Positions 14,082-21,704 of a DNA stretch of 64,000 nt are shown here, piece by piece. Position 1 is the stretch's first letter. Every line of letters begins with the position of its first letter. Position numbers and translations under genes: made by a program. Origin of the DNA: an uncultured Selenomonadaceae bacterium (GTDB taxonomy: Bacteria > Bacillota > Negativicutes > Selenomonadales > Selenomonadaceae); contig CAJOFR010000008.1 in the NCBI GenBank assembly GCA_905234195.1, forward strand, positions 1-64,000, in the 5' to 3' direction. The notes beneath the pieces are model-generated. The model was not told the origin of the DNA, searched no databases, and worked only from the letters and a program-made list of their open reading frames with translations.

Positions 14082-14744
14082 TTAACCGATCCTAACTGTG
14101 TGAATAATTTTGAAGCCGCGCCCTTCGAGTTGCGATTTAATCTCGTCGAATTTATTCGCAATGTCTTCAAAACGGATAACCAAACTGTAAGTCTTTTCGC
14201 TTTGCTTGCAAGTAATTAAGCTGTCCAGATTTATTCCGTTGTCCCTGAAAACTTTTGCAACCTCCGCGATAACTCCGACCTTGTTATCCACTTCAACAGT
14301 CATGCGAATTTTTCCGCCGCTCGGCAAACCCATGACCTCTATGAAAGTTTTTAAAATATCCGTCGCCGTGATAATCCCAACGACAGTCCCGACTTGAGAC
14401 ACGACCGGCAACCCGCCGACTTTGTTCTGATACATAATCAACGCCGCCTCTTCAATCGTCGCGTCTTCGTTCACGGTGATAACCTTCCTCTGCATTATAT
14501 CACGAACGCTGAGTTTGTCGAGAAGTGAGCGAATTTCAAATTTAGAAAGCGACGTCGCCGGCGAAGGAGCCACGCGCATAACATCTCTGTCGCTCAAATA
14601 TCCGACAAGTTTCCCGCCGTCAACGATAATCATTCTGTGGAATTTATGTTTCTTCATCATTCTGTCGACTTCCCCAATGGTCGCGTCGCTCGTCATGGTA
14701 ACAGGGTGCTTTGTCATTCTTTCAGCTACAAACAAACTTTCCAA
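14082..14744 (-). CDS. Tandem CBS domain + ACT domain protein (AcuB-like)
   Basis: MTKHPVTMTSDATIGEVDRMMKKHKFHRMIIVDGGKLVGYLSDRDVM; second CBS MQRKVITVNEDATIEEAALIMYQNKVGGLPVV; C-terminal ACT-like VDNKVGVIAEVAKVFRDNGINLDSL. Confidence 0.88.
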   Translation of the reverse strand: MESLFVAERMTKHPVTMTSDATIGEVDRMMKKHKFHRMIIVDGGKLVGYLSDRDVMRVAPSPATSLSKFEIRSLLDKLSVRDIMQRKVITVNEDATIEEAALIMYQNKVGGLPVVSQVGTVVGIITATDILKTFIEVMGLPSGGKIRMTVEVDNKVGVIAEVAKVFRDNGINLDSLITCKQSEKTYSLVIRFEDIANKFDEIKSQLEGRGFKIIHTVRIG

Positions 14745-14844: not shown

Positions 14845-15939
14845 TCAAACGTCGCTCTTAGTCCGGTTGCAGTCCGCACAAAGAATCTGACAATTTTCCG
14901 CAACAGTCCGCCCGCCCCTGCTCCAGGGTTTAATGTGATCCGCTTGCATGTCCTTCAGCTCAAAATGACGCCCGCACTTCGCGCAAGTCTTCCCCTGCCG
15001 ATTGTACACCGCCTCCCTTATTTTACCACTAAACTGACGAATACTCAAATGCTGCTCCTTCCCGTCAAACAAGTATTCGTAAATCCCCCGCGTGTTCGTA
15101 ATATCTTCGTCGTCAATCAAATCTTGAATGCGCTTTTCCATTTCGTCGGCGTCGTAATTAATTCCCTCGTACTTGTTATAAAAAATCCCCCACTCCTGAC
15201 CTTTCATGGAAGGACGATAAACTTTAAACGTAACCTTCACCCACTCCATGACGTGACTAAAATATAACCACAGCTCATTACAATTTGTTTCGTGCTGGTG
15301 TTCCGCCATGTACTGTTCAATTTTTTTGCCTTGCTTGTCGCAAATCCAACGCAACGCCGCCTCCAAAAAATCCTGCCTGTTCGCCGAGCCCTTCAAATAT
15401 TTTTTGTAGTCCTTCACAATGACTTCGCCATTATTTTTGCTGAAACATTTCTTCGCCGCGTTTAACCACGTGCCCGGCAATATCGCGTTGCGCAACTCCT
15501 GCGCGTTCAGCTCCGTGCCCGGCGTATTCAAAACTTTAAACCACTCCAAAGTTTCCTTGTCCGTGCCTTCGCAAACACAAACCCACAATTTATAATCCAG
15601 TATCTGATTTTTATCCCCCTCCGTCAAATTTCTGAAGCTGAAATAGTCAATCGAATATTCGTTGTTGACGTATTGGCAAATGCTTATCGTGCGCTGCTGC
15701 CCGTCCAAAAGTTCAAACGTCCCGTCATTTTTTCTAATCCAGTACATCGCCCCCAGCGGCAAACTTTTTTGCACGCTCTGTATGACCGCCTCGCGTCTCT
15801 TGCCGCTGTAAATAAATTCGCGCTGATACGGCGGACGAATGTTCAGCTTGCCGCCATATCCAAAGCAACCTTCCTCCGCGCTGTCGATATACCCTTCAAC
15901 TACCTCGCGAACTGAAATTTCTTTGAGTTCATACTTCAT
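14845..15939 (-). CDS. DUF262 domain + C-terminal HNH endonuclease
   Basis: N-terminal RPPYQREFIYSGKRREAVIQSVQKSLPLGAMYW and LLDGQQRTISICQYV (DUF262 motif); C-terminal CAKCGRHFELKDMQADHIKPWSRGGRTVAENCQILCADCNRTKSD (HNH). Confidence 0.93.
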   Translation of the reverse strand: MKYELKEISVREVVEGYIDSAEEGCFGYGGKLNIRPPYQREFIYSGKRREAVIQSVQKSLPLGAMYWIRKNDGTFELLDGQQRTISICQYVNNEYSIDYFSFRNLTEGDKNQILDYKLWVCVCEGTDKETLEWFKVLNTPGTELNAQELRNAILPGTWLNAAKKCFSKNNGEVIVKDYKKYLKGSANRQDFLEAALRWICDKQGKKIEQYMAEHQHETNCNELWLYFSHVMEWVKVTFKVYRPSMKGQEWGIFYNKYEGINYDADEMEKRIQDLIDDEDITNTRGIYEYLFDGKEQHLSIRQFSGKIREAVYNRQGKTCAKCGRHFELKDMQADHIKPWSRGGRTVAENCQILCADCNRTKSDV

Positions 15940-16238
15940 TTGCTTTCCCCTCTTTCCGCATAAATCAACACCTCATCGCTTTTAATTTCCGCCAAAAATT
16001 TTTTATCTGAACTGCTCCCCGTTACAACATCAACGTGGCAATCTAATTTTTCTTCTAAATCCAAAATAAATGAAAAATATTGTAGCCCGCGCAAATTTCC
16101 GCGCTCAATCAAAAAATCAACGTCGCTTTCTTCGTCAGCTTCGCCGCGAGCGTACGAACCAAACAGCGAAATTTTTTTCACGCCGTATTTTTTTGCGATA
16201 GGCAAAACTTTTTCGCGTATCTGCTCAATCGTGTACAT
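15936..16238 (-). CDS. MNT/MntA-type minimal nucleotidyltransferase
   Basis: KKISLFGSYARGEADEESDVDFLIERG, i.e. GS-X10-DXD motif; 100 aa; overlaps neighbours on both sides. Confidence 0.92.
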   Translation of the reverse strand: MYTIEQIREKVLPIAKKYGVKKISLFGSYARGEADEESDVDFLIERGNLRGLQYFSFILDLEEKLDCHVDVVTGSSSDKKFLAEIKSDEVLIYAERGESK

Positions 16239-17283
16239 CTTCTTGCCTCCGCCGAATTAAAAGCCGCTTAAAAATATTTTTGCCGTTAATCTGCGGCGCA
16301 AATAAATCGTATTTGCTGTCTTTCCCGTGATTAGCACAGCCGACAATTTCAAACTGATTCGGATTATATTTATCGAGGAAAGTAATCGGCACGCCCATGA
16401 CGCCAAAATAATCGCAGGGTATTTCCGCAGTCTTTGAAACTTCTATCGCGTCGTAGTTGTCATATTTCGGATATTTTTCCGGAGAATAATTGAACACCAA
16501 AAATATTTCTTCCTGCAATTTTTTCAGCGGGATATTCGTAAACCACGTGACGTTTCTAAATTTCACGAGTCCTTTTTCTGAATCGTAAACACCTTCCGCA
16601 AAAATTTTGTAATTACCCTTCGGCAAACTGAAATACGCATTTCCGTGAGCAAAACCGTAACCAAGCCACAATTTATTTTTCATAATCAACGGAAAAATTT
16701 CTTTGTAAGTTATCGCGTTAAAAGGAGCGACGATAACAAATTTTTTATCGTACTTCATCAGCTGGGCGACGTATTCGCGAAACAAACTGAAGGGCGGGTT
16801 CGTCACGACGACATCTGCCTCTTTCAAAATCTCGATACATTCCGCCGAACGAAAATCCCCGTTGCCTTTCAGCGGCGTGATAATTTCGGGATGCCCTTCG
16901 ATAAATTGCTTGACATCGAGTAAATCTTCGCGCCCGTCGCCATTCCAATCCTTCAGCTCGGAAATTTCAACCTTGTAAGCAATTTCGTTTCGCGGACGCG
17001 AATAAAATTCCTCCATGCCCGGCAAAACAAGTTCGTTGCCGGAAATCGGGGAGCCGGAATAACAAGTGGCGATTAATTTTTTCAGCTCAAGCGCGTTAAA
17101 ATTCATGGCGAAATACTTAAAAAAATCGCTCTCGTAAGGATCGTCGCAGTTGCAGAGAATAATTTTGCCGCGAAAAAATTTTCGATAATCTTCGTGACGC
17201 AGTTCGCGCTCAATGGTGTAGAACTCGTCCTTCTTCGCGCGCGCCGCCGAATTTAAATTTCTATTGCCCGCCAAAAAAATCAC
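16225..17283 (-). CDS. EcoRI-family adenine-specific DNA methyltransferase
   Basis: AKKDEFYTIERELRHEDYRKFFRGKIILCNCDDPYESDFFKYFAMNF, DVVVTNPPFSLFREYVAQLM (motif IV NPPF), FGVMGVPITFLDKYNPNQFEIVG. GTG start at 17283; start uncertain. Confidence 0.9.
   Translation of the reverse strand: MIFLAGNRNLNSAARAKKDEFYTIERELRHEDYRKFFRGKIILCNCDDPYESDFFKYFAMNFNALELKKLIATCYSGSPISGNELVLPGMEEFYSRPRNEIAYKVEISELKDWNGDGREDLLDVKQFIEGHPEIITPLKGNGDFRSAECIEILKEADVVVTNPPFSLFREYVAQLMKYDKKFVIVAPFNAITYKEIFPLIMKNKLWLGYGFAHGNAYFSLPKGNYKIFAEGVYDSEKGLVKFRNVTWFTNIPLKKLQEEIFLVFNYSPEKYPKYDNYDAIEVSKTAEIPCDYFGVMGVPITFLDKYNPNQFEIVGCANHGKDSKYDLFAPQINGKNIFKRLLIRRRQEDVHD

Positions 17284-17392: not shown

Positions 17393-21704
<4,312 letters not shown>

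Follow-up and report, generated by a model that had tools for sequence, protein, structure and literature searches.

A proposed Type II-like restriction-modification operon with a probable orphan MntA-family gene in a Selenomonadaceae bacterium, and candidate recognition-switch arrays in its relatives

Among the described systems closest to the locus analysed here, Type II restriction-modification (R-M) systems are recognised by a methylase gene with an intact catalytic motif and an adjacent, co-conserved nuclease gene; R.EcoRI has the PD-(D/E)XK fold. GmrSD-type Type IV nucleases combine a GmrSD_N domain with a His-Me/HNH nuclease domain and attack modified DNA on their own, with no cognate methylase gene. 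The Type VII toxin is recognised as an HEPN protein with an RX4HXY motif encoded next to a minimal nucleotidyltransferase, and in the HepT/MntA module the nucleotidyltransferase MntA adenylylates the toxin HepT, for which its GSX10DXD motif is required (PMC7641770).

The window (the whole 64,000-nucleotide stretch of DNA that was analysed, from an uncultured Selenomonadaceae bacterium) combines elements of these systems in three overlapping genes, for an EcoRI-family methylase (M), a minimal nucleotidyltransferase (MNT) and a DUF262-HNH nuclease (R). We propose that they represent a two-gene Type II-like R-M operon together with an orphan MntA antitoxin that has lost its HepT, a reading that we consider quite likely. 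M would mark host DNA as N6-methyladenine, and R would cut DNA that does not carry this mark, its DUF262 domain probably gating the HNH cut through NTP. MNT would be the harmless half that remains of a toxin-antitoxin module acquired earlier, the HepT toxin gene having been lost, and would have no role in restriction.

The methylase-nuclease pair

The three minus-strand open reading frames, their coordinates and their 14-nt and 4-nt overlaps are exactly as described in an earlier sequence-only reading of this DNA, the housekeeping genes that it placed on either side are present, and Pfam profiles match all of the families that it named (PF13651 methylase, GSX10DXD nucleotidyltransferase and GmrSD_N (DUF262)-HNH). 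Gene content, gene order and families are observed directly, as are the co-occurrence of M and R, the changing content of the slot between them and the absence of HepT. The features are as follows.

14082-14744, minus strand: CBS-ACT gene, neighbour
14845..15939, minus strand: putative restriction endonuclease (R), DUF262/GmrSD_N plus HNH, 364 aa; PADLOC REase_II PDLC03418, E 1.2e-113, residues 6-363
14851..14985, minus strand: HNH nuclease domain of R; PF01844, E 5.5e-14, residues 319-363
15478..15840, minus strand: GmrSD_N (DUF262, ParB/Srx-like NTPase) domain of R; PF03235, E 1.1e-17, residues 34-154
15936..15939, minus strand: overlap of MNT stop and R start, 4 nt (ATGA), read from the sequence
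15936..16238, minus strand: MntA-family minimal nucleotidyltransferase (MNT), apparent orphan, 100 aa; NTP_transf_2/Polbeta, E 1e-12/3e-14 (PF01909/PF18765)
16116..16160, minus strand: GSX10DXD active-site motif of MNT, residues 27-41 (GS27...D39xD41), read from the sequence
16225..16238, minus strand: overlap of M stop and MNT start, 14 nt (ATGTACACGATTGA), read from the sequence
16225..17283, minus strand: EcoRI-type N6-adenine DNA methyltransferase (M), 352 aa; PF13651, E 5.9e-127; PADLOC MTase_II PDLC03297, E 2.9e-109
16264..16341, minus strand: variable module at the C-terminus of M, about residues 315-340; part duplicated as alternative cassettes in relatives
16546..16659, minus strand: variable segment in the middle of M, about residues 209-246, a candidate for target recognition; diverged between three same-genome copies with a near-identical scaffold
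16789..16800, minus strand: catalytic NPPF motif of M, residues 162-165; columns N162-F165 invariant in 35 homologues
17214..17215, minus strand: position of a 12-nt in-frame deletion in M, from alignment of its DNA with that of the C4 and C26 paralogues
17393-19684, plus strand: pcrA-like helicase, neighbour

The pair formed by M and R is found again in some 35 species from several phyla, and also on plasmids, with no MNT between the two genes. M lies directly 5' of R, usually touching or overlapping it, in nearly all of the 37 R-encoding loci found in GTDB (Bacteroidota, Clostridia, Alphaproteobacteria, Verrucomicrobia and others), and in every one whose contig extends far enough to show it, the plasmid copies are annotated in the same way, and PADLOC Type II models match both window proteins over their full length, all of which bears out the earlier suggestion of a modification and restriction pair. 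The catalytic motif of the window M is intact, and the adjoining nuclease gene is co-conserved with the methylase in relatives and on plasmids. We therefore regard M and R as a widespread pair of a known kind and class it as Type II-like, a label chosen because R has a GmrSD/BrxU-like domain make-up yet adjoins a cognate methylase, and one that is neutral as to whether R reads sites or marks. A search that covered mostly the freely accessible literature found no papers on the M-R family. At five loci (L208 in genome G073, L009, L025, L097 and L121) two family methylase genes stand in tandem, or nearly so, 5' of a single nuclease gene.

R retains all of the family-invariant residues, namely DGQQR (79-83), C319/C322/C350/C354, D334-H335, N349 and N358. 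Structural searches with Foldseek returned weak matches to BrxU (7p9k), ParB domains and the HNH nuclease 4h9d, none with E below 0.001, and phmmer against the PDB returned HNH-domain matches only. R thus has both domains of a GmrSD-type Type IV nuclease (PF03235 and PF01844), together with a co-conserved methylase gene that such nucleases are defined as being without. As its DUF262 and HNH-fold logic is the same as that of GmrSD and BrxU, R might instead be modification-dependent (Type IV, GmrSD-like) or modification-stimulated (SspE-like), with M supplying the mark that it reads, and relatives that pair one R with an M apparently changing its recognition module would fit a fixed-site nuclease poorly. 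We nevertheless think this unlikely, as the pairing of M with R is close across phyla, the full-length match is to the PADLOC Type II REase model and not to its Type IV models, and the cutting of host DNA bearing its own mark would be suicidal unless gated.

M is listed with a GTG start, and an in-frame TTG nine bases further on is a possible alternative. Foldseek gave weak Rossmann-MTase matches only, none at E below 0.001, and phmmer against the PDB gave no meaningful homologue. The window genome holds two more methylase copies without a nuclease, one intact at C4:70958-72043 (L044) and one frameshifted at C26:29767-30860 (L045). The scaffold of the three copies is nearly identical and their central and C-terminal segments are sharply diverged, a pattern that would be expected if recognition modules had been exchanged between copies by domain movement (PMC3077401), and we infer that these two variable segments set the specificity of the methylase. 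Residues 294-347 of the window M share 61% identity with the final cassette of an array found on an IMG/VR contig (L250), against 36% for the remainder of that protein.

The window M is also without four residues (QIED) after the DEFYT motif. This absence is unique among 74 distinct homologous N-termini, the other 73 of which keep the spacing of the region, and it removes an Asp from a column that is more than 90% conserved; the frameshifted C26 paralogue has a deletion at the same site. These two deletions speak against the proposed operon, since the window M may be impaired and an active R would be expected to kill a cell that has no working M. The loss of conserved residues from M, the frameshift at C26 and the decay of a related MNT-R arrangement in species G018 would all suit a locus that is decaying and inactive in the window strain. 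This we hold to be doubtful, since all three reading frames are open, R keeps every invariant residue and the second M-type gene, at C4, is intact.

The slot between methylase and nuclease

MNT carries the GSX10DXD active-site motif and falls in the PADLOC candidate family PDC-S09; against the NCBIfam MntA antitoxin model it scores 49.9 bits, below the cut-off of 60. Its closest relatives in the genus, at 72% to about 59% identity, are mostly encoded 5' of HepT-like HEPN genes, among them relatives at 65-72% identity that adjoin such genes. No HEPN reading frame with RX4HXY adjoins MNT in the operon, and the lack of an HEPN gene noted in the earlier reading extends to the window's own assembly, throughout which PF01934 has no match; as the assembly is 88% complete, a distant HepT could be missing from it. 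The same genome encodes two other MNTs, both distant relatives of the one in the slot, one of which adjoins a PF08780 partner. In three Bacteroidales loci (L015, L020 and L032) an MNT gene lies 5' of a methylase belonging to this R-M family, followed by an HEPN gene in L020 and not in L032.

The content of the slot was surveyed in 49 loci where a single contig carries M and R in order; the genus or its MAGs contribute 43 of these. In 26 of these, less than about 225 nt separate M and R, with no recognised cargo, and in 17 the slot holds toxin-antitoxin-type genes. An MNT-family gene is present in seven, all from the genus, and is accompanied by HepT in three. The cargo of these 17 slots, and of two others, is as follows.

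MNT alone: the window, L112
MNT plus HepT: L126, L205, L221
Fic plus MNT: L134
MNT/NTase_sub_bind modules plus Fic: L127
DUF4258 plus YgiT/YokU-like zinc protein: L038, L122, L124, L203
YgiT-like alone: L121
Fic alone: L106, L117, L214
both of these kinds: L095, L103
RelE-like gene, outside the 17: L133
Rpn-like gene, recognised by eye, outside the 17: L216

In a sister species, the orthologous locus (L038/L211) has the same CBS-ACT neighbour and an R that is 75% identical over the first 168 residues, and its slot holds the DUF4258 and YgiT-like pair in place of MNT. The M-R slot in this Selenomonadaceae genus thus appears to be a landing site for interchangeable small toxin-antitoxin modules.

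Some further genes in and around the slots were also recorded. Between M and R of L005 (7690-7910) and L038 (1260-1370) there is an antisense reading frame whose short hydrophobic product (MDTIITFLIGVASSVVANYVYGKLQRLFKK in L005) resembles a type I toxin and has no Pfam match. Rpn/PD-(D/E)XK transposase-like genes were recognised by eye at L216:4122-4982, in a copy with an in-frame IEQGIELG repeat, and 3' of the C4 methylase (L044:6098-6355).

The sequence-only reading had made MNT a third core component of an undescribed three-gene system, and this part of it is not supported. Across the 37 GTDB relatives no MNT separates M from R, the trio is not co-conserved, and the slots of the remaining surveyed loci contain other cargo or none. 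As a general arrangement, the three-gene system is rejected by synteny in GTDB contigs, on plasmids, in the genus and in the family. Because the slot in the genus accepts interchangeable toxin-antitoxin cargo, MNT is most likely an orphan antitoxin. In a tree of the MNTs the exact position of the window protein is not resolved; the HepT-less slot MNT of G026 (L112) groups with a HepT-bearing slot MNT (support 99/95), from which it follows that HepT loss has occurred in this setting.

Against the orphan antitoxin reading, the intact MNT gene, with its active site retained and its tight overlap with the genes on either side, goes beyond what a mere relic would require. Furthermore, a HepT-less MNT directly before R recurs in G026, where it is intact, and in G018, where it is decayed, and one also lies before R in G038. 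In G018 the decayed remnant of MNT and nuclease (L225:6951-7490) lies before the gene that also flanks the intact L112 locus in G026. These features, with HepT-less MNTs in the M-R slot of three species and a decayed fourth case, would suit a domesticated MntA that was kept after toxin loss as a regulator, adenylylating R (or M) and thereby tuning restriction, as the sequence-only reading had proposed. Such a role seems rather improbable to us, as most same-family M-R pairs do without an MNT and the slot accepts unrelated toxin-antitoxin cargo equally well. HepT-less MNTs are also equally common away from R-M genes, making up 3 of 7 in the slot (counting L220) and 4 of 15 elsewhere in the genus (Fisher p 0.63), and we reject a special retention of HepT-less MNTs in the slot, there being no excess over elsewhere.

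Orphan antitoxins that act in trans are known in general, and same-family HepT/MntA modules are common in sister species, so that the orphan MNT might protect in trans against the HepT of modules arriving on mobile elements. The location of the gene inside an R-M operon would then be explained only as history, and we consider such an anti-addiction role very unlikely. An orphan antitoxin left by a lost HepT/MntA module is the reading that we retain, and with it a candidate new three-part defence system gives way to an R-M operon with a probable toxin-antitoxin landing site in its middle, the cargo of which bears on how selfish modules stack.

Arrays of alternative C-termini in relatives

In about nine related loci the methylase is followed by extra copies of its C-terminal module. 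The C-terminus of the window M is single and is not accompanied by a repeat tract, and the junction pattern described below has no match in the window genome (G000), unlike the orthologous locus of the sister species (L211/L038), which carries an array. The arrays are located as follows.

L202:4299-6064: G092
L209:2241-3960: G141, a single-contig genome
L083:505-1951: G042
L138:4275-5310: G035
L211:1-534 and L038: G013
L022:1-536: Petrimonas
L249, L250, L253: IMG/VR contigs

Nearly every module starts with TGT-AAC/AAT/AGC-GGN (Cys-Asn/Ser-Gly), and the TAA or TAG that ends the preceding module is embedded in this start, one frame back. The shift from module to module is +1 at all nine steps measured, in eight loci; in the L251 contig two modules are fused in one frame. 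Just 5' of the modules lie repeat tracts, namely (GACA)32, (AACGG)21, (CACCGGA)4, (CTCAG)12, (ACAG)20 and A11 or A9, with T9 and (ACAG)4 in L253; the L211 contig begins too late to show one. No repeat unit is a multiple of three, and slippage therefore changes the frame.

The frames in which the modules would have to be reached are kept open. Across nine segments there are no stops in the off-frame needed to reach the next module, whereas the frame with no such task contains 35, giving a combined probability of about 10^-11.7 by synonymous resampling, in which the segments are treated as independent and some cassettes are related. In the five loci checked (5/5), every one of the three frames is open from the repeat up to the first junction. 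At present the methylase frame leads into module 1 in three loci (L202, L209, L253), into module 2 in two (L083, L249) and into module 3 in L250. Within-strain variation in the tracts was not seen in these assemblies, which are mostly from short reads and give unreliable tract lengths, and in L138 the tract adjoins a run of N.

The junction pattern is found in 5 of 189 family genomes, with no matches to the reversed control pattern, and no cassette arrays were found outside the family in a phylum sample of 399 genomes. Beyond the family, arrays occur in Petrimonas (Bacteroidota) and on several IMG/VR contigs; there are none on plasmids, where the cassette query matched one place per record.

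The arrays are probably three-way specificity switches, in which repeat slippage chooses the recognition end. More fully, the repeat would set the frame and the three frames would lead to three intact target-recognition modules, so that one M could have three specificities beside a single R whose own specificity comes from M or ignores that module, the window copy being a single-module relative. We believe this model, drawn from comparison of the loci, to be likely. A search, again mostly of freely accessible literature, found no report of a three-frame recognition switch. If the model is true, one repeat tract choosing among three recognition ends would yield three methylomes from a single gene by slippage, and an unchanged nuclease beside a switching methylase raises the question of where nuclease specificity comes from. 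The recognition arrays of the relatives could thus matter more than the trio in the window, and are the part worth following.

Comparison with known systems

The operon resembles Type II R-M systems of the M.EcoRI family (PF13651; PDLC03297/PDLC03418) in its adjacent and co-oriented M and R, its EcoRI-family methylase and its full-length Type II REase match, and differs from them in that R is a DUF262-HNH protein and M and R are separated by an MNT gene. With GmrSD, BrxU and SspE (DUF262 with DUF1524 or HNH) R shares the DUF262 NTPase-like domain, DGQQR and an HNH-fold nuclease, whereas it is paired with a cognate methylase and consists of one short polypeptide carrying a PF01844 HNH and a Cys4 cluster. 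MNT belongs to the same family as the antitoxin of Type VII HepT/MntA (PMC7641770), with the GSX10DXD motif and with genus relatives encoded 5' of HepT, but has no HepT either adjoining it or elsewhere in the assembly.

Toxin-type accessory genes are also found in R-M operons with embedded toxins, with PrrC or RloC within and RhuM-like or Fic/Doc-like genes beside them (PMC3710099); here, in contrast, the operons are two-gene and Type II-like, and many different toxin-antitoxin modules occur in the same slot. Finally, the movement of recognition domains between methylases (PMC3077401) has its likeness in the modules described here, and in C-terminal phase variation (PMC5320596) and hsdS/mod phase variation, as in the arrays, a gene has a simple repeat close to its 3' end that shifts the frame and the C-terminus. 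The arrays differ from these in that a Type II-like methylase carries, behind one repeat, three homologous recognition-module cassettes, each in a frame of its own.
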